Below, in pieces: positions 52,239 to 62,393 of a stretch of 64,000 bases of DNA. The position numbers and the translations under genes were made by a program. Origin of the DNA: Ignavibacteriota bacterium (lineage in GTDB: Bacteria; Bacteroidota; Ignavibacteria; UBA10030; BY39); the NCBI GenBank assembly GCA_003327435.1, contig QOQV01000002.1, positions 62,001 to 126,000 on the forward strand, read 5' to 3'. The notes under the pieces are model-generated. The model was not told where the DNA came from and did no database searches. It was given only the letters and a program-made list of their open reading frames with translations. Every line of letters begins with the position of its first letter. Positions within the stretch are counted from its first letter, which is position 1.

Positions 52239-54677
52239 CTATATTTTTATTTTTCTGAGGCGCAATGAATTTGAAACTACTGAAACCGAGCTTAAAGCCA
52301 TTGCTGCAGCAGCGAGCATAGGATCAAGTATTCCAAAAGCAGCCAGTGGTATTAAACTAATATTATAAATGAAAGCCCAGAAAAGATTTTGATATATAGT
52401 AGTTAGAGTTTTTTTTGAAAGTTTTATCGCTTTGATCACAGCATTTAGATCCCCCTTGACTAATGTGATATCACCAGCTTCAATCGCAATATCTGTGCCC
52501 GTCCCGAGAGCTATACCAACATCGGCTTGGGTCAGTGCTGGTGCATCGTTAATTCCATCTCCAACCATTAACACAATTTTTCCATTTGCTTGATATTCTT
52601 TAATCTTATCAACTTTATCTTTTGGGAGCAAGTTAGCGTGGTATAGTTCTATTCCAGTGGATTTGCTTATTGCCTCAGCAACTTCCTCTCTATCACCAGT
52701 TAGAATTACAGTTGTGTATCCCATCTGCTTCAGTTCATTTACTGCTTGCTTAGCATTCGGTTTGAGTTTGTCACTAAATGTAATGAAGCCGACAAGTTGG
52801 TTTTCAATAGCCACTAATACTGTAATTTGACTCTTATGATTCATTATATCGATGGATGTGTTTCGGAGGTCAATTCCTTTTTTAATCATAAATTCTTGGT
52901 TTCCAATGTAAACCTGTTTTCCGTTAATTAATCCTTCAGTGCCAAATCCTGAAATTGAATTAAATTTTTCCACCTTGACTGGAATAATATTGCGTTCGTT
53001 TGCGAAATGAACTATTGCTTTAGCAATTGGATGTTCTGAAAGAAGTTCAATCGAAGCGACAATTTTTAGTAATTCTTCTTTGGTTAATTGGTTAAAAGTA
53101 TAGATATCTGTTACAGTAAGTTTACCTGTTGTAAGTGTACCAGTTTTATCGAAGACGATTGTATCAGTTTTGCGCAGTATTTCTAAAATATTAGCATTCT
53201 TTATTAGAATGCCATTTGATGCTCCAATTCCTGTTCCTACTATAACTGCAGTTGGAGTTGCTAAACCAAGCGCGCAAGGGCATGCAACGATCATTACTGC
53301 AACAAAATTCAGAAGTGCAGATGAAAAATTTCCAGCTACGAAATACCAGATGGTAAAGCTTAAAAGGGCAATCGCTATTACAGTCGGAACGAAAACTGAT
53401 GCAATTCTATCAGCCAGGTTCTGTATTGGTGCCTTCGATTCTTGTGCTTCTGATACCAGTTTCACAATTTGAGATATCATCATATCTTTACCTATCTTCT
53501 TTGCTTGAAACTTAAAACTCCCCGTCAGATTCAATGTTCCACCGATTACTTCATCTCCTTTATGCTTTTCAATCGGAATACTTTCTCCAGTTATCATACT
53601 TTCATCAACACTCGAACTGCCTTCTATTACAATTCCATCTACAGGTATCTTTTCACCAGGGCGTACGATAATTGTATCGTCAATTACAACCTGCTCGATT
53701 GGAACTTGCATTTCTTTACCGTTTCTTAAAACTGATGCCATCTTTGGACTCAATCCAACCAATCTTCGAATTGCTTCAGAGGTTTTACCTTTAGCCCGCA
53801 GCTCAAGCAATTTTCCTAATAAAATTAATGTAATGATAACTGCAGTTGTGTCATAATAAACATGGAGTTGATGACCTCTTGAAGTGAAATATGATGGGAA
53901 AAATGTTATCGCAGAGCTATAAACGAATGCAGCTGATGTACCAACAGCGATTAAAGTATTCATATCAGCCTTGAAGTGTTTCAGAGTAGCCCAAAACCCT
54001 TTGTAGAAACGATTACCTGCCCAGAATAGCACAGGAATTGTCAGAACAAACAAAATGTAATTCCATGTTTGATGACTAAAGAAGGAAAACGGAGAATGTT
54101 CCATCATTGTCCACATACTGACTATACTAATTGGTAAAGTTAAAAGTAAACTAATAATAAAACGGGTTTTGAGCTTTTTGTATTCTTTTTGATGTTCTAA
54201 TTCTTCAAATTCCCATATATTTTCTTCTGGGATTTCTGCTATTTGATATCCTACAGATTCTACTGCCTGTTTAAAGTGGCTAAAGTTTACTTTTGTATCA
54301 TCATATTGAATTGTGGCTGTTTCGGTTGCAAGGTTTATTTTAGCTGAGGCAACACCTGGTAGTTTATTCAAACTATTTTCCACTTTGGATACGCAACTGG
54401 CGCAACTCATACCTAAAATAGGAAGCTGAATCTTTTTAAAATATCTATCTTCAATTGGATAGGGAGTTGGTGCTATAGGAATACTGCTTGAAGGTTGTAT
54501 TTTACTCGAAGCAAGCATTCTGGTAGTTTGGTTTGTTATGTAGAACTCTGGATTTTTATCGAAAAGTTCTTTGCATCTGATTGCACAAAAATAGTAATCA
54601 ATATTTTTATACACGCTTTTTGCTACAGCTTCTTGCTGTTCGATATTCATTCCACAGACGGGGTCAATATGTTTCAT
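52239..54677 (-). CDS. copA: copper/silver-exporting P1B-type ATPase
   Basis: 812-residue inner-membrane ATPase that exports Cu+ (or Ag+) from the cytoplasm. It begins with a YHS/TRASH-like zinc-ribbon module ([15 protein letters not shown]) and one heavy-metal-associated domain ([16 protein letters not shown], about residues 90-105), then eight membrane segments with the [11 protein letters not shown] metal site (about 463), [10 protein letters not shown] (phosphorylated Asp about 514), the HP motif in [10 protein letters not shown] and [10 protein letters not shown]. The ATG at 54677 fits AGAAG spacing better than the one at 54683, which adds two residues. A terminator-like hairpin ends 20 nt upstream. 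The export product meets the CusCBA system encoded just before it. Confidence 0.93.
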
Positions 54678-54696
54678 AGTCATCTTCTTTTTAGTT

Positions 54697-54733
54697 AAAA
54701 AACGCCAATGATAATTTTACATTGGCGCTTTTT
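54697..54733 (-). terminator. hairpin between the HMA lipoprotein and copA genes
   Basis: CGCCAATG (54703-54710) and CATTGGCG (54720-54727) form an 8-bp perfect stem around a 9-nt loop. Read on the minus strand it is followed by six T (54702-54697), a standard intrinsic terminator; on the plus strand it is followed by five T as well. It sits just 20 nt before the copA start, so it may be a partial terminator that sets the copA:upstream ratio, or a conditional one. Confidence 0.7.
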
Positions 54734-54754
54734 AAGTTTTTCTATATTTGAATT

Positions 54755-55123
54755 TTATTTCCCATCTTTACAGCAATCAGGTAAGCTGTTGTATGATTCA
54801 CGGTTGCGCGGAGTTTCGTTAGCATCATATCCAGCATCGGAAATAAATTTTTCGAGTGTCGTAATGTCAACTTTTGTTCTGTTGAATTTCACTGTTGTTA
54901 TTTTCTTTTGAAGGTCGACTTCGACATCATAAACACCTTCCACGGCTGAAACCGTTTTCTTTATAGTGGAAACGCACATTCCACACATTATGGATGGTGT
55001 AGATATTGTTGTTGTTTGGATATTATTTTCAGTTTGATCCTTCCCGTCATAACCCGATTCTCTCTTTCCGCAGCCAACAAGAAGGATTATTAAGATATAT
55101 GAAAGAACAATATATTGATACAT
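54755..55123 (-). CDS. HMA-domain periplasmic lipoprotein
   Basis: 122-residue lipoprotein (ILIILLVGC, lipidated Cys18). After a short linker, residues 38-105 form a heavy-metal-associated domain with the metal pair Cys47-x-x-Cys50 in STPSIMCGMCVSTIKKTV and the typical AGYDA ending; a short tail ends in LPDCCKDGK with two more cysteines. The longer ORF begins 54 nt upstream inside the neighbouring gene; ATG 55123 is chosen because it opens the lipoprotein signal. Likely role: bind Cu+ or Hg2+/Ag+ at the periplasmic face of the inner or outer membrane, a chaperone for the CusCBA pump or for the ATPase encoded downstream. Confidence 0.8.
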   Translation of the reverse strand: MYQYIVLSYILIILLVGCGKRESGYDGKDQTENNIQTTTISTPSIMCGMCVSTIKKTVSAVEGVYDVEVDLQKKITTVKFNRTKVDITTLEKFISDAGYDANETPRNRESYNSLPDCCKDGK

Positions 55124-55134
55124 ATTAGATATCC

Positions 55135-55512
55135 TTATATCTTTTTTGACTCTTTCATTTTCGTTTGTCCTGGGCACCTATATTTGCCATCTTTTGATTG
55201 TGAATCATCAGATTTCTTGACATCTGTTTTCTGACAGCAATCCTCACCTTTAGAGCATTCTTTTTTAGCATCTTTTGCTGCCTTTTGTGTGCAGTCAGAT
55301 TTGCCATCGTGCATTTGTGATGCATCGCGTGATGTGCAATCTGATTTTTTGACTTCTGTTTTAGCTTCGGATTTCACACCTTTTTCACTCGCACAGCAAG
55401 ATTTCTGTTTTTCTCTGGTCGTTTCAGATTTTTTTGTATCAGTTTGGGCAATTAATATCGAAAAAGATACTAATATAGCAACTAATAATTTATGTATATT
55501 GTTTGATTTCAT
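55135..55512 (-). CDS. Cys/Lys-rich secreted protein, probable metal binder
   Basis: 125 residues: a signal peptide (MKSNNIHKLLVAILVSFSILIAQ split around residue 20), then a low-complexity, hydrophilic, Lys/Ser/Asp-rich chain with eight cysteines: SCCAS, two copies of the KSDCT pattern, ECSKGEDCCQK and the C-terminal YRCPGQTKMKES. Paired and spaced cysteines in a disordered chain resemble metallothionein-like sequestration proteins. It has a strong AAAGGAG site and its own candidate promoter; the HMA lipoprotein starts 11 nt after its stop. No family recognised. Metal binding is inferred from composition and location next to CusA. Confidence 0.6.
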   Translation of the reverse strand: MKSNNIHKLLVAILVSFSILIAQTDTKKSETTREKQKSCCASEKGVKSEAKTEVKKSDCTSRDASQMHDGKSDCTQKAAKDAKKECSKGEDCCQKTDVKKSDDSQSKDGKYRCPGQTKMKESKKI

Positions 55513-55551
55513 TGTTGACTCCTTTAATGTTAATGTTTTTATGGTTAATTA

Positions 55552-55580
55552 AATATATGAGTTTAAATTTTAAACAATAA
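55552..55580 (-). promoter_or_regulatory. candidate promoter with an inverted repeat upstream of the Cys-rich gene
   Basis: On the minus strand: TTATTG (55580-55575), 17-nt spacer, TATATT (55557-55552). The spacer is occupied by GTTTAAAATTTAAAC (55575-55561), an inverted repeat of 7 bp arms around one base. An inverted repeat between the two boxes is the layout of metal-sensing MerR-type sites, but no regulator gene is in the window. The -35 box is poor, so this is a weak call. Confidence 0.35.
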
Positions 55581-55620
55581 TTTACACTTTTATTTTTGAA
55601 ATTCAAATTTAAAATCATTC

Positions 55621-58600
55621 TTAACTTTTCATCCAGCTTGCCATTTTTGATCCTTCTAATTTGCCTTTCATTAGAGCTCGTTCTTTCATGTAGCTGAATA
55701 ACACTGGTGTGACTATCAAGACGTGAATTGTGGATGTAATCAATCCACCGATCATTGGTGCGGCGATAGGTCGCATTACATCCGACCCAACTCCTGTACT
55801 CCACATTATCGGTAGAAGTGCGATCAAAGTTGTCCCGACTGTCATAATCTTTGGGCGTAACCTTAGCACCGAACCTTCGATAGTCGATTCAGTAATGTCT
55901 GACATTGTGATTGGACCGCGCTTACCAAGCTCAAAAGACCTGAAACGTTTATCCAGTGCCTCATGAAGATAAACTACCATTACAACACCCGTCTCTACAG
56001 CCAATCCATACAGAGCGATAAATCCAATCCATACAGCCACCGAGAAGTTGTATCCTAAAATATAAATCAGATACACGCCACCGATTAGAGCAAATGGGAC
56101 AGAGAGCATTACTACAAATGCTTCTTTAAAATCTTTTGTTATGAAATAAAGCATAATGAATATTATGAAGAAGACCATCGGCATCAGAAGCTGCAAACGC
56201 TCGCGCGCACGGATTTGGTTTTCCCACTGTCCGCTCCACTGGAGAGTGTATCCCGGGGGAAGAGTTAACTCTTTATTTAAAACTTCTTTTGCTTCATTCA
56301 CAAAGCTCCCCATATCACGTCCACGAACATTCAGATAAACTATAGATCGCAACTGTGCATTTTCGCTGGAAATCATTGCTGGACCGGGAACAATCTCTAT
56401 CTTCGCAAGCTGTGAAAGCGGAATGTAACCACGTGAAGAAACTGAAGAAGTTTGTGTAGTCGAGTTTTGAATTTTTAGTTTTGAGTTGAGAGATGATGTA
56501 TAGTTTTCCATCGAACCCATTAAGCTGCTCGATTGTCCGTTGTTATCTGGTTTTGCAGACGACATTAAGGCTGTATCAGATTTTCTCATACCTTTCAAAT
56601 TAATAGGCACGGGGATATTATTGATAGCATCTAAATTATTTCTCCAATCTCTCGATAGCCGCACGCGAATCGGGAAGCGTTGCCTGCCTTCGAGCACAGT
56701 TCCAATATTCTCGCCACCAATCGCGGTCTCAATTACATCTTGTACATCGCCGATATTAATCCCATAACGAGCAACGGCTTCACGGTCAATTTTTATATCG
56801 AGGAAAAGTCCACCTTGAATTCGCTCGGCATACAGATCAGCGGCGCCAGGAACCTTACGCAAAACATTTTCAGCTCTGATTGCCAGTTGCTCAAGCGTAT
56901 CTAAATCTTTTCCGAATATTTTGATACCAAGGTCAGTCCGCACACCGGTCGAAAGCATATTAATCCGGTTGATGATGGGCTGTGTCCAGCCATTTCGTAC
57001 ACCGGGAATTTGAAGCTTTGCATCCAACTCCGCAATGATATCATCTTTTGTTATTCCGGGTCGCCATTCACTCTTCGGCTTCAAGATGATGATAGTTTCA
57101 ATCATGCTCACAGGTGCATTGTCGGTTGATGTTTCTGCCTTGCCCGCTTTGCCAAGAACAGATTCCACTTCAGGTACTGATTTAATAATTGCATCCTGAA
57201 CTTGTAGAATTCTATTCACTTCAGTAATCGAAGCGGAGGGAAGCGTAACCGGCATAAAAAGCAAGCTCTGCTCGTCGAGAGGAGGCATGAACTCGGAACC
57301 GATGTTCGTCATCATTGGTATTGCGATAAGAAGTGCGATGATGTTAAGTGCAATTGTTGTCTTACGATATTTTAAAACCCATCGAATTACAGGTGCATAA
57401 ATTTTATTAAGAATATTACTGATAGGATTTTGTTCTTCACTTCTAAATTTGCCTCGTGTAAGAATTGTCATTAACATCGGAACAAGGGTAATAGCTATAA
57501 TTGCAGAACCAATCATCACAAATGTTTTTGTGAATGCAAGGGGTCGAAACAATTTTCCTTCCTGCCCTTCCAACAAGAAAACAGGGAGGAATGAAACAAC
57601 CATTATTGCAACTGAAAAGAATATCGCCGGTCCAACTTGTTTAGCAGAACGAATTGAAATCTCAGTGTAATCTTCTTTCGTCAATGTTCCTTTTTCTTTC
57701 TGTGTCTGGGCAACATGCCGATATGCGTTCTCGACAAGCACAATCGAGGCATCCACAATTACACCGATAGCAATTGCAATTCCTCCAAGCGACATAATGT
57801 TTGATGTAATTCCGAAAGTTTTCATAAGTATGAAAGCCATAAGCACTGCTATTGGAATTTCTATAATTATCCGCAACACACTTCTGAAATGAAGCAAAAA
57901 TAAAAATACAACTATACTCACTACAATCGCTTCTTGAAGCAGCGTACCTTTTAAATTATTGACTGCCGCCATTATGATATCTGTGCGGTCGTATGCAGGT
58001 TTGATTTCGACACCTTTCGGAAGTCCCGGATAAATTTCTTTAATCTTAGCTTTTACCCTGTCGATTACATCTTTTGCATTCTCGCCGTAACGCATAACAA
58101 CTATCCCACCCACAACTTCTCCCTCTCCGTTTTTCTCCAACGAGCCGCGACGGATATCACCACCAAGTTGGACGATACCTAAATTCTTCACATAAATCGG
58201 CGTTCCACTTACACTTGTTGAAACAACTATATTCTCAATATCTCTAATCGATTGAATGTAGCCCTGACCACGGACAAAATATTCCGCATCAGAAATTTCC
58301 AAAATTTTTCCCCCAACTTCGTTATTCGAGCGCATTACTGCATTTCGGATATCGGTAATGGTTACATTGTATGCTTTCATTTTATTTGGGTCGATATCGA
58401 TTTGGTACTGCTTAATATATCCACCTATTGACGCGACTTCAGCAACACCCGCTACCCCCTGAAGATGCAATTTGATATACCAATCTTGAATTGCACGCAG
58501 TGTTCCTAAATCATATTTACCTTCGACTGTGTACCAATAAACGTGTCCAACTCCTGTTCCATCGGGACCAAGCTGAACTTTCGCACCTTGCGGCATCAAC

Positions 58601-58956
58601 GGTTGAACAACGGAAAGTTTTTCCAGTACTCGGCTGCGCGCCCAGTATAAATCGGTTTTCTCCTCGAAGATGATGAAGATGAACGACATGCCGAACATTG
58701 ATTGTGCGCGAATTGTTTGAACTTCTGGAATTCCTTGAAGCGCAGTCGTCAGCGGAAAAGTTATTTGATCCTCAACTAATTGTGGCGAGCGCCCCATCCA
58801 CTCTGTAAAAACTATCACCTGATTTTCCGATAGGTCGGGAATTGCATCAAGTGGAGTGTGGATAACAGACCAGATACCCCAAACTATAATCAATAAATAG
58901 ATAATAATGATTATGAACTTATTCCTTGCACTAAAATCTATTATTTTTTCTATCAT
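55621..58956 (-). CDS. cusA: copper/silver efflux RND transporter CusA-type
   Basis: 1111-residue inner-membrane RND pump (E. coli CusA is about 1050). Proton-relay residues are visible: VIVDASIVLVENA (Asp and Glu), AVETGVVMVVYLHEAL (Glu) and RLRPKIMT (Lys). Methionines in APVSMIETIIILKPK and RINMLSTGVR match Cus-type metal-binding positions, favouring Cu/Ag over the divalent CzcA class. The N-terminus IEKIIDFSARNKFIIIIIY is normal. A stretch of about 50 residues in the periplasmic porter region (roughly residues 790-838, from RKSDTALMS to SSRG) is extra and low-complexity. Codons look more G/C-rich than in neighbouring genes. It lies between the CusB gene (12 nt) and a non-coding 108-nt space. 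Confidence 0.92.
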   Translation of the reverse strand: MIEKIIDFSARNKFIIIIIYLLIIVWGIWSVIHTPLDAIPDLSENQVIVFTEWMGRSPQLVEDQITFPLTTALQGIPEVQTIRAQSMFGMSFIFIIFEEKTDLYWARSRVLEKLSVVQPLMPQGAKVQLGPDGTGVGHVYWYTVEGKYDLGTLRAIQDWYIKLHLQGVAGVAEVASIGGYIKQYQIDIDPNKMKAYNVTITDIRNAVMRSNNEVGGKILEISDAEYFVRGQGYIQSIRDIENIVVSTSVSGTPIYVKNLGIVQLGGDIRRGSLEKNGEGEVVGGIVVMRYGENAKDVIDRVKAKIKEIYPGLPKGVEIKPAYDRTDIIMAAVNNLKGTLLQEAIVVSIVVFLFLLHFRSVLRIIIEIPIAVLMAFILMKTFGITSNIMSLGGIAIAIGVIVDASIVLVENAYRHVAQTQKEKGTLTKEDYTEISIRSAKQVGPAIFFSVAIMVVSFLPVFLLEGQEGKLFRPLAFTKTFVMIGSAIIAITLVPMLMTILTRGKFRSEEQNPISNILNKIYAPVIRWVLKYRKTTIALNIIALLIAIPMMTNIGSEFMPPLDEQSLLFMPVTLPSASITEVNRILQVQDAIIKSVPEVESVLGKAGKAETSTDNAPVSMIETIIILKPKSEWRPGITKDDIIAELDAKLQIPGVRNGWTQPIINRINMLSTGVRTDLGIKIFGKDLDTLEQLAIRAENVLRKVPGAADLYAERIQGGLFLDIKIDREAVARYGINIGDVQDVIETAIGGENIGTVLEGRQRFPIRVRLSRDWRNNLDAINNIPVPINLKGMRKSDTALMSSAKPDNNGQSSSLMGSMENYTSSLNSKLKIQNSTTQTSSVSSRGYIPLSQLAKIEIVPGPAMISSENAQLRSIVYLNVRGRDMGSFVNEAKEVLNKELTLPPGYTLQWSGQWENQIRARERLQLLMPMVFFIIFIMLYFITKDFKEAFVVMLSVPFALIGGVYLIYILGYNFSVAVWIGFIALYGLAVETGVVMVVYLHEALDKRFRSFELGKRGPITMSDITESTIEGSVLRLRPKIMTVGTTLIALLPIMWSTGVGSDVMRPIAAPMIGGLITSTIHVLIVTPVLFSYMKERALMKGKLEGSKMASWMKS
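56440..56592 (-). repeat. in-frame extra segment in cusA, possible repeat insertion
   Basis: About 150 nt (51 codons) absent from typical CusA proteins, located between the INLKGM region and GYIPLSQLAKIEI. The DNA contains the plus-strand A/T stretch AGTTTTGAATTTTTAGTTTT near 56463-56482, which on the coding strand has the form CAAAACTxAAAATTCAAAACT, a type of short intergenic repeat I associate with Bacteroidota-like genomes. The reading frame is kept. Boundaries are approximate. Confidence 0.45.
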
Positions 58957-58968
58957 AATACCTCCACA

Positions 58969-60504
58969 TTATTCATACACTATTACCTTACCTTCCAACA
59001 TATCCATTCCACAATGGAATCTAAATTCACCAGCTCGCATTGGTGTGATTTCAATGACAGTTGTCTGATGTGGTGTTAAATATTTCTTTATTTTGAAATC
59101 AGGAAATAAAACTTCATCTGTACATTTTACATTATCATGACGTTCAAAATTGATTGTAAGTTTCTGACCTTTCTTTGCATAAATCGTAGAAGGAGAATAT
59201 CCACCATCAACAATAACCGTTACTTCTTTACTTAATTTTGTGTTTAAATGTGATGTAATGTTTTTTTCTACATTAACTGAATGTACATTGTGACCACCTG
59301 TTGAACCTGAGTATTTCAATTGGCTCTCTGAATCAAGCAAATATCCACCTGTTACAACAACTTTGTCACCAACATTAAGTCCACTTATTATTTCGTTAAG
59401 GTTGTCTGTTTCAATTCCAATAATCACATCTCTTGGTTCGAAAGTATTTTCCTTAACTTCAACCCATACGACTTTACGCTTACCTGTATAAATTACTGCA
59501 GGCGAGGGAATAACTATAGTATTTTTTGATTGAGTTAATATTTGTGCAGTTACATACATTTGAGGTTTTAATTTACCTGTGGAATTGTTGAATTCAGTTC
59601 GAACTCTTACAGTGCGAGTCTCACTATTCACGACTGGTTCAATAAAAGTTACTTTGCCCACAAAGCTTTCGTTTGGATATGATTCGGTTGTTAATTGAAC
59701 CTCGGAACCAACTTTTACGAATTGAATATCTTTTTCATACACCTCTAAATAAACCCATACTTTTGAGAGGTCGGCAAGTTTATAAAGAATCATTCCTTCA
59801 TCAACATATTGGCCTTCCTGTATTTCTTTAGAAATCACAGTTCCCGAAATAGGAGAGTGGAATGCTATAGTGTAAAGTGCTTTTTGGTTCTTCTTTAGGT
59901 CTGAAATTTGTTGTTCAGACAAACCGAAATAATATTGCAGTCGATCAAGCGATGCTTCAATCATTGCATCTTGACTGTTTTTTACTGCGAGTAGGAATTC
60001 CTTTTGGGCTGAAATTAAGGCCGGACTATATATTTCAAAGAGTGGTTGATTTTTTGATACCAGCTTACCAGTATAATCTACATGTACTTTCTCTATTCTA
60101 CCGCTGAATCTTGCTGTAACAGTTGCAAGATTTGGTTCTGCAAAATCTACAATTCCAACTGTGTTAATTTTACGATTAATTGTTTGTATTTTCACAGTTT
60201 CGGTTGCAACATTTGCAATCACTCGTTGAGTTGGGGAAAGGCTGATAGATTGCAACATTGCTAAATCTTCAACGGAAGCGTTCTTTCGATTCGTCTGTTT
60301 GACAAGAGCCATTCCGCAAACAGGGCAGGCACCAGCTCTATCTGAAACAACCGATGGATGCATAGGGCAGGTGTATATTTCATTCGTCTGCTCATCTAAT
60401 ATTTGAATTTCATTCCTGTCATTTTTTTTATTGTTGCACGCATTAAAAATAATCGGAATAATTAGAAACATAATTGTCAAGATTATAATTAATTTTAACT
60501 TCAT
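58969..60504 (-). CDS. cusB: CusB-type efflux adaptor with metal-binding domains at both ends
   Basis: 511-residue periplasmic membrane-fusion lipoprotein (IFNAC, lipidated Cys23). First comes a heavy-metal-binding module, YTCPMHP (44-50) with CPVCGM (60-65), as in many CusB/CzcB adaptors. The core (about 90-410) has the barrel-sandwich, alpha-hairpin and beta-barrel domains, for example VHVDYTGKLVSKNQPLFEIY and YKLADLSKVWVYLEVYEKD. The last 80 residues are a cupredoxin-like domain: GGYSPSTIYAKKGQKLTINF, CTDEVLFPDF and GEFRFHCGMDMLEGKV, with plausible copper ligands Cys, His and Met. A cupredoxin at this end is not part of E. coli CusB. cusC follows upstream by 68 nt. Confidence 0.9.
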   Translation of the reverse strand: MKLKLIIILTIMFLIIPIIFNACNNKKNDRNEIQILDEQTNEIYTCPMHPSVVSDRAGACPVCGMALVKQTNRKNASVEDLAMLQSISLSPTQRVIANVATETVKIQTINRKINTVGIVDFAEPNLATVTARFSGRIEKVHVDYTGKLVSKNQPLFEIYSPALISAQKEFLLAVKNSQDAMIEASLDRLQYYFGLSEQQISDLKKNQKALYTIAFHSPISGTVISKEIQEGQYVDEGMILYKLADLSKVWVYLEVYEKDIQFVKVGSEVQLTTESYPNESFVGKVTFIEPVVNSETRTVRVRTEFNNSTGKLKPQMYVTAQILTQSKNTIVIPSPAVIYTGKRKVVWVEVKENTFEPRDVIIGIETDNLNEIISGLNVGDKVVVTGGYLLDSESQLKYSGSTGGHNVHSVNVEKNITSHLNTKLSKEVTVIVDGGYSPSTIYAKKGQKLTINFERHDNVKCTDEVLFPDFKIKKYLTPHQTTVIEITPMRAGEFRFHCGMDMLEGKVIVYE

Positions 60505-60572: not shown

Positions 60573-61829
60573 TTAATAACTTAAAATTTCTTCTATATCT
60601 CTACAGCCAATTTCCTTTTCTAAATTGGCTAATGTTTGTTCAAATTTCATTCGTATCATGATTGCTTCCATCTTCTCCATAGTAAGCATTCTGTATGTGT
60701 CAAGAAGCATTAGAAAGTCAGTTTTCCCGGTTTGATAATTTGTTAATGTTAGCTGTAAGGATTGCTCTGCAAGTGGAATAATCTTTTTGTCATACAATTC
60801 CCACTGTTCAATTAGGGAACGCAATTTTGCATAGTATTCACGCACTTTTGAGAGAAGCATATTTCGTTCATTGTTATAGATTAACTCTGATTTTATTATG
60901 TTGGCTTCTGCTTCTTGGACTTTTGCATTAGCCTTGCTTAGTGTCCATAAGGAAAATGGGAGTGTAATACCTGCTTGTAAACTCCAACCACGAAAACCGG
61001 TCATTGGAGAGGAAACATATTCAATACCCACTTTCATATCAGGTAGATATTCTAACTTAGAAAGTTTATGCATTGTTTTTTCTCTCTCCACCATTAGCGA
61101 ATCGCTTCTTAATTTTGAACATTTTTTTAAAGCATATGCCTGAATTTGCTCAATTTCAAAATTAAAAGAAATCATATCTGGTGCGGTTGCTAATCCCGTG
61201 AAATTGCTGATATCTTGATTAAGTAATGATGCAAGCATGGCAAGTGTTGTCTCTTCCATTTCTTGATATCTGAGAAATTCTTTTTCTAATTTTGCAATTT
61301 CTATCTCTGCTAGTAGAACATCTTGTTGTGAAGTTTTTCCAACAGAATATTGCAATCGAGTAATTTCCAGAACTTGCTTCATCAGTTCAACATTTTGTTG
61401 ATTGAGTTTCATGTTTTGCTGGATCATCCAGAGCTCGTAATATGCAATTTTTACATGCATAATTATATCGACTGATTTTTCGTTGAAAATCTGTTGCGCA
61501 CGATCAACTTCTATTTGTGCCATACGGACTTCGGTCGATATTTTGGCAGGGAAGCGAATCATTTGCATTAATTCTAAATTAGCAAACATTGCCTCATCCG
61601 GCCTCAGGCGGGGCATTTCCATAAGCTTAAATGCTAATTCAGGATTTTCAAGTGAACGAATTTGTGCAATCTTTGACTCTAATGCTCTTATTTCCATACT
61701 ATATGAATTGAGCGATAGATTTTTTAGTAAAGCTTGATCAATTAGTTGATCTAAAAATAATATGGGTTTTTCCTGACTATGTAAGATCCCCAATAAAAAT
61801 ATGTAAATGAAGATTATCTTAGTTTTCAT
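60573..61829 (-). CDS. cusC: TolC-family outer-membrane efflux protein (CusC-type)
   Basis: 418-residue outer-membrane protein with a signal peptide (ending GILHSQ). It has the helix-strand repeats of TolC-type proteins: PELAFKLMEMPRLRPDE, LEITRLQYSVGKTSQQDVLL and the second copy LQLTLTNYQTGKTDFLMLLD, the paired YxxGK(T/S)xxxxL motifs being characteristic. It is not visibly lipidated, unlike E. coli CusC. Partners are the adaptor and pump encoded downstream. There are 99 nt before it from the Cys/His-rich gene, AT-rich and with a weak palindrome TTTTCTTaAAGAAAA near 61873. Confidence 0.9.
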   Translation of the reverse strand: MKTKIIFIYIFLLGILHSQEKPILFLDQLIDQALLKNLSLNSYSMEIRALESKIAQIRSLENPELAFKLMEMPRLRPDEAMFANLELMQMIRFPAKISTEVRMAQIEVDRAQQIFNEKSVDIIMHVKIAYYELWMIQQNMKLNQQNVELMKQVLEITRLQYSVGKTSQQDVLLAEIEIAKLEKEFLRYQEMEETTLAMLASLLNQDISNFTGLATAPDMISFNFEIEQIQAYALKKCSKLRSDSLMVEREKTMHKLSKLEYLPDMKVGIEYVSSPMTGFRGWSLQAGITLPFSLWTLSKANAKVQEAEANIIKSELIYNNERNMLLSKVREYYAKLRSLIEQWELYDKKIIPLAEQSLQLTLTNYQTGKTDFLMLLDTYRMLTMEKMEAIMIRMKFEQTLANLEKEIGCRDIEEILSY

Positions 61830-61928: not shown

Positions 61929-62330
61929 CTAAATTAAAAGGGTAGAATTTAAGATGGGTATGTCAATACAAGAATATGGTTGGATAAATGTTGGTTGGCT
62001 GGTAAGTTTGGTGAAATTAAGACGTTGGTCGTTTTCAATGTGGTGTTTTACAAAATTTAGAGAAAAAATGTTTTCTCTTAAGTGGTTTTTAATAAAGTGA
62101 TTATCATTTGCTTTAACAATTATGAAATTTGAGCAACAATGTTCAATCGATTTTGTAATTTTTTTTTGAGTACTATCAGTATCGTTCTTATGGCACATTG
62201 AACATTGTTCGGCTGAGAATGAGTGCATCATTTTACAGTAGTGTAAAACTACTGGTAACCCAAAATTAAAAATAGAGAATATCACAATAAATGCGATAAT
62301 TATGGATTTATATGTTGGCAAAATTCTCAT
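61929..62330 (-). CDS. Cys/His-rich membrane-anchored periplasmic protein
   Basis: 133 residues from ATG 62330 (an in-frame ATG lies 21 nt further upstream). A hydrophobic helix (about residues 8-29) is followed immediately by HYCKMMH (30-36), then CSMCHKN (43-49) and EHCCSNF (63-69), a cluster of five cysteines with several His and Met: likely metal ligands. The C-terminal half lacks such residues. I recall similar small HYC-containing proteins beside Cus-type operons in Bacteroidota-like genomes, but no named family comes to mind. It is first in the cusCBA direction and may be a metal sensor or a periplasmic copper binder. Function unknown. Confidence 0.7.
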   Translation of the reverse strand: MRILPTYKSIIIAFIVIFSIFNFGLPVVLHYCKMMHSFSAEQCSMCHKNDTDSTQKKITKSIEHCCSNFIIVKANDNHFIKNHLRENIFSLNFVKHHIENDQRLNFTKLTSQPTFIQPYSCIDIPILNSTLLI

Positions 62331-62393
62331 ACTACCCGTATAACATAACACAAATTATTTAAGTTTCAAAATTAATCCAAATAAAATGTTTAA

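Follow-up and report, generated by a model that had tools for sequence, protein, structure and literature searches.

The gene at 55135..55512 on the minus strand of the window (the whole stretch of 64,000 nucleotides analysed here) encodes a secreted, predicted disordered, Cys/Lys-rich protein, hereafter CK, which on balance appears to be an exported Cu(I)/Ag(I) buffer based on cysteine. In such a role CK would work together with an HMA-domain lipoprotein (HMAlp) and the CusCBA efflux system, and would be a functional analogue of SilE and PcoE; this analogy draws on published accounts of those proteins (PMC5008109, PMC7558416).

The CK gene and its product

CK is 125 residues long and contains eight cysteines, including two CC pairs (CC 39-40, C59, C74, C86, CC 92-93 and C113), together with two copies of KSDCT and the C-terminus GQTKMKESKKI. 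The ORF starts with ATG, about 7 nt downstream of a strong Shine-Dalgarno sequence (AAAGGAG), and opens with a Sec-type signal peptide (residues 1-22; 55447..55512, minus strand) whose cleavage site, judged by eye, falls between LLVAILVSFSILIA and Q. The mature part holds the eight cysteines within about 103 residues, along with one histidine and two methionines. This re-reading of the ORF agrees with an earlier note on the same DNA, in which CK was described as a secreted signal-peptide protein of 125 residues with eight cysteines, CC and KSDCT motifs, encoded between cusA and an HMA lipoprotein gene and assigned to no recognised family. In this regard, searches with CK against Pfam, NCBIfam and PDB sequences returned no meaningful match, and CK appears, judging from its sequence, to represent a new, unnamed and lineage-restricted type of protein that has no description in Pfam or NCBIfam.

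Mature CK is predicted to be mostly disordered. In the AlphaFold2 model the only confident helix (residues 3-30) spans the signal peptide and pLDDT stays below 50 over residues 27-125, a low confidence that, with an alignment of five sequences, is weak evidence alone; charge-hydropathy analysis likewise places the mature part on the disordered side (mean H 0.32, against a boundary of 0.44).

A copper operon around CK

The gene order in the window is cusC-cusB-cusA-CK-HMAlp-copA-ispE, with the copper genes on the minus strand. The product of cusA (55621..58956), an HME-RND efflux pump by TIGR00914 (1147 bits), aligns along its length with E. coli CusA (3t51), and Met is retained at 573, 623 and 672, which we take to be the three substrate methionines that bind Cu(I)/Ag(I) in the E. 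coli pump. On one side of it lie cusB (58969..60504), encoding an adaptor that bears HMBD at its N-terminus and a cupredoxin-like domain at its C-terminus (Pfam), and cusC (60573..61829), encoding a TolC-type outer membrane factor (Pfam OEP); on the other, beyond CK and HMAlp, copA (52239..54683) encodes a Cu(I) P1B-type ATPase with YHS and HMA domains (Pfam; TIGR01511, 610 bits). The HMAlp gene (54755..55123; Pfam HMA, 3e-12) probably starts at 55123 (MYQYIV...), 11 nt past the CK stop codon, and its product carries the lipobox LVGC, the metal site MCGMC and a C-terminal CCKDGK, and is CopZ/MerP-like by NCBIfam and PDB.

The cluster encodes a third small Cys protein, directly 5' of cusC (61929..62351, minus strand). 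This secreted product has the overall layout HYC...CxxC...CC (HYCKMMHSFS.EQC.MCHK, later a CC), possesses an orthologue in the same place in the same-genus genome G001 (L079:16807-17214) and matched no family in Pfam or NCBIfam; its position ahead of cusCBA recalls that of regulatory ORFs of the CzcI/CutF type. Two further statements of the earlier note, that CK belongs to a copper operon and that several candidate small metal binders are grouped around one pump, are supported.

The neighbours of CK favour Cu/Ag over other soft metals. CC pairs could likewise bind As(III), Hg(II) or Cd(II), and CC is a classical vicinal-thiol motif, as in the MerA C-terminus and in MerT. CK could accordingly be imagined as a binder of another soft metal or metalloid (Hg(II), As(III) or Cd(II), for instance) or as a general thiol/redox buffer, with its CC pairs serving as vicinal dithiols next to a MerP-like HMA lipoprotein, and HMAlp does score weakly against MerP (46 bits, cut-off 92.6) as well as against CopZ (53 bits, cut-off 91). 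We nevertheless consider this explanation unlikely, since the adjoining CusA has the Cu/Ag methionine triad, CopA is of the TIGR01511 copper type, CusB bears HMBD and cupredoxin domains, and no mer or ars family occurs among the annotated neighbours.

Conservation and turnover among relatives

CK is a real gene under selection, more than a chance ORF, because full-length orthologues exist in the same taxonomic family (60-63% amino-acid identity), synonymous differences between the window and its relatives exceed non-synonymous ones (pS 0.57-0.70, pN 0.20-0.21), and the three closest homologues retain all eight cysteines with about 40% of the other residues changed (hypergeometric P about 0.014-0.021 each). 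The dN/dS of CK (0.12-0.21) is like that of HMAlp (0.12-0.16), these values being rough given that synonymous sites are near saturation in some pairs. The order CK-HMAlp-copA is also found in G002, G003 and G004; the G002 copy of CK is more distant (37% identity) and again precedes the HMA gene and copA. Lack of synteny with copper genes in relatives had been named in the earlier note as an observation that would tell against its reading; in these relatives the linkage is kept.

Across the operon (window 52239-58956, compared with L011 of G003 and L010 of G004), window CusA shares 92% identity with that of G003 and 80% with that of G004, CopA is 71% identical to both, and CK and HMAlp are 60-67% identical to their counterparts in these two genomes. 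The operon therefore looks, at the level of these identities, like a mosaic, as though cusA had been swapped between lineages. In G003 (L011:7813-13401) the interval from cusA to copA encodes an enlarged set of small metal proteins, comprising DUF2231, cupredoxin, triple-HMBD, CK+HMBD and CK proteins, the HMA lipoprotein and several unnamed lipoproteins.

The same-genus genome G001 yielded no BLAST match to window CK. Its locus L079 holds an identical operon, cusC-cusB-cusA-X-HMAlp-copA-ispE, in which X, an ORF of 128 aa, encodes a signal peptide and seven cysteines, arranged as three CC pairs and one single residue; once signal peptides are removed, X is no more similar to window CK than shuffled controls are. 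G001 retains the slot and the kind of protein, and either the sequence has drifted past recognition or an unrelated protein of like kind has been swapped in.

Survey of the order

The HMA lipoprotein is present in 55 of 98 genomes of the order (E 1e-12). The 742 kb around its best matches were scanned with a filter that was chosen after examples had been seen (signal peptide, 55-240 aa, and at least 4 Cys and at least 14% Lys in the mature part), HMBD and HMA proteins being left out of the count. Among the 21 ORFs that pass, 19 lie no more than 1.8 kb from an HMA lipoprotein gene on the same strand (expected fraction 0.20; nominal binomial P 6e-12, in sampled genomes that are related to each other); the others are found about 0.1 kb ahead of a truncated HMA match at a contig end (G061) and 3.8 kb downstream (G018). 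Counted by genome, a CK neighbour occurs in 18 of 38 with the HMA lipoprotein, which represent five of the six families sampled; no CK gene lies within 1.8 kb in the other 20, including all 14 genomes of family f6. The pair stands away from cus genes in G006, G011, G010 and G060. Families f2, f3 and f4 often have a membrane protein with zinc-ribbon and FtrD-like (PF10080) features between CK and the HMA lipoprotein, making a three-gene cassette (L092:10354-11079, L096:8881-9534, L077:12903-13583).

None of 20 HMA-lipoprotein loci from outside the order had a pure CK partner, and HMBD or HMA-like proteins sometimes occupy the CK slot there. A profile of the close-family CK proteins matched the window genome alone in a phylum-wide sample of 395 genomes, a contig search for CK relatives found the contigs of G004 and G024 only, and no CK was detected in the plasmids searched. 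A scan for promoters exceeded shuffled sequences modestly at most and carries no weight in the reading below.

Similarity above composition-preserving shuffles is confined to two groups, one made up of the window, G002, G003, G004 and G024 and the other centred on G032, G061, G060, G010 and G015; CK proteins outside them are, as far as their sequences tell, look-alikes by position and composition. Cysteine spacing in the 21 proteins is far from random: CC occurs 36 times against 8.8 in shuffled sequences (maximum 20), an enrichment of about four-fold, whereas CxxC does not occur (9.0 expected) and CxC is found twice (8.7 expected). This lack of CxxC speaks against sites of the thioredoxin-like, zinc-ribbon or HMA-like kind as well as against classical metallothionein patterns. 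The secreted HMA proteins of G007, G079 and G080 (L111:9731-10102, L112:3351-3869, L115:9518-9937) have Cys/Lys-rich tails of their own, as if, to go by their sequences, the features of the two partners had been fused.

These observations lead us to propose an order-wide class, a proposition that we hold to be evenly balanced. Its members would be exported, disordered proteins with CC-paired cysteines acting as metal sponges for the CCK-tailed HMA lipoprotein, a thiol-based counterpart of SilE/PcoE in which sequence turns over fast and homology is soon lost, and composition (about 22% Lys and 7% Cys), CC pairing, the signal peptide and gene position are kept.

Comparison with known systems

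By the features tested, CK stands outside the metallothionein, SilE, HMBD, Csp1 and CutF families. SmtA-type metallothioneins are, like CK, small, Cys-containing, almost free of aromatic residues and disordered without metal, but CK is exported, has about 8% Cys arranged as CC without CxC or CxxC, and matched no metallothionein model in Pfam or NCBIfam. The label 'metallothionein-like' given in the earlier note finds no support in its strict sense, with eight cysteines in about 103 mature residues, no CxC or CxxC, and 21 look-alikes that are enriched in CC, lack CxxC and are depleted in CxC.

SilE and PcoE share with CK a small size, export, a disordered apo-protein and a location near Cus/Sil-type efflux and a P1B ATPase, and first-line metal sequestration is their proposed role. 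Their ligands are histidine and methionine, ten conserved His and 10-15 Met (PMC5008109), in contrast to the eight cysteines, one His and two Met of mature CK, and CK matched no SilE/PcoE model or structure. Csp1 is also exported, rich in Cys residues and proposed to store Cu(I). It folds, however, into a four-helix bundle and carries a Tat signal (PMC7558416), whereas CK is predicted to be disordered, with no helix past residue 30 in the low-confidence AlphaFold2 model, and has a Sec signal without twin arginines and no CxxxC pattern.

The nascent copper sensors CutF, CruR and CopL (DUF2946) come close to CK in layout, each being a small Sec-exported Cys protein encoded directly 5' of a copper gene (PMC9973294). 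By this precedent, copper binding to the emerging CK chain would slow its export and control translation of the downstream HMA lipoprotein, and the protein itself would be disposable. The 11-nt gap to the HMAlp gene, the fast turnover of the CK sequence and a weak hairpin over the downstream Shine-Dalgarno sequence in the window (z -1.77) fit such a mechanism. Against it, CK lacks a DUF2946 match in Pfam and NCBIfam as well as a proline-rich C-terminus, and the hairpin does not appear to be a conserved stem-loop, being absent from G001, G002, G003 and G004 (z 0 to +1.35). Furthermore, the HMA gene precedes CK in G013 and G026, the membrane-protein gene often intervenes in f2-f4, and the number of cysteines and the CC pairs are kept, as would be expected of a working protein. 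We therefore regard a sensor of this type as quite improbable.

The HMBD (PF19335) repeat proteins secreted from cus operons are linked to CK through paralogues in G003, G004 and G024, in which the CK signal peptide and N-terminal Cys region (KQK-CC...CTS) precede two HMBD motifs (CPMHP...CGM); CK of the window has no PF19335 match, and the paralogues have two. By joining the CK N-terminus to HMBD, these paralogues show that the CK module has been genetically combined with known metal-binding modules. The notion that CK is itself a decayed HMBD-repeat protein, a near-neutral low-complexity remnant that has lost its metal domains, finds an echo in these two-motif paralogues and in a C-terminal 'YRCP' of the window protein that resembles the start of HMBD, but is very hard to reconcile with purifying selection (dN/dS against relatives), with the retention of all eight cysteines and with the HMBD-less form being the one directly ahead of HMAlp in G002, G003 and G004.

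Proposed function and implications

Our preferred reading is that of a cysteine-based buffer. Sec would export CK, which would stay mostly unfolded in the periplasm, and we infer that its thiols, chiefly those in CC pairs, coordinate several Cu(I) or Ag(I) ions. CK would then buffer envelope metal and pass it to, or take it from, the membrane-anchored HMA lipoprotein; CusCBA, with the HMBD domain on CusB, would subsequently expel the metal, and CopA would bring cytoplasmic Cu(I) into the same compartment. Periplasmic thiols can oxidise to disulfides, which counts against a buffer built on cysteine, as do the HMA-lipoprotein genomes, about half, that have no CK gene nearby, the pairs set apart from cus genes and the fit of CC to other soft metals. 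An anaerobic host might have explained such a sponge; this explanation loses weight because the host genome contains a haem-copper oxidase-family gene, which makes strict anaerobiosis improbable.

SilE and PcoE, the well-characterised copper/silver sponges of the periplasm, rely on histidine and methionine. If CK is indeed a paired-Cys envelope sponge, these Bacteroidota would have to keep periplasmic thiols reduced or metal-protected. The HMBD-repeat relatives of CK add a link that was absent from the earlier note. In addition, function would be held in this system by composition and gene position, not by sequence, a conservation pattern that may come as a surprise to specialists; ordinary homology searches would miss such cases, in the way that BLAST overlooked the CK counterpart in a genome of the same genus.
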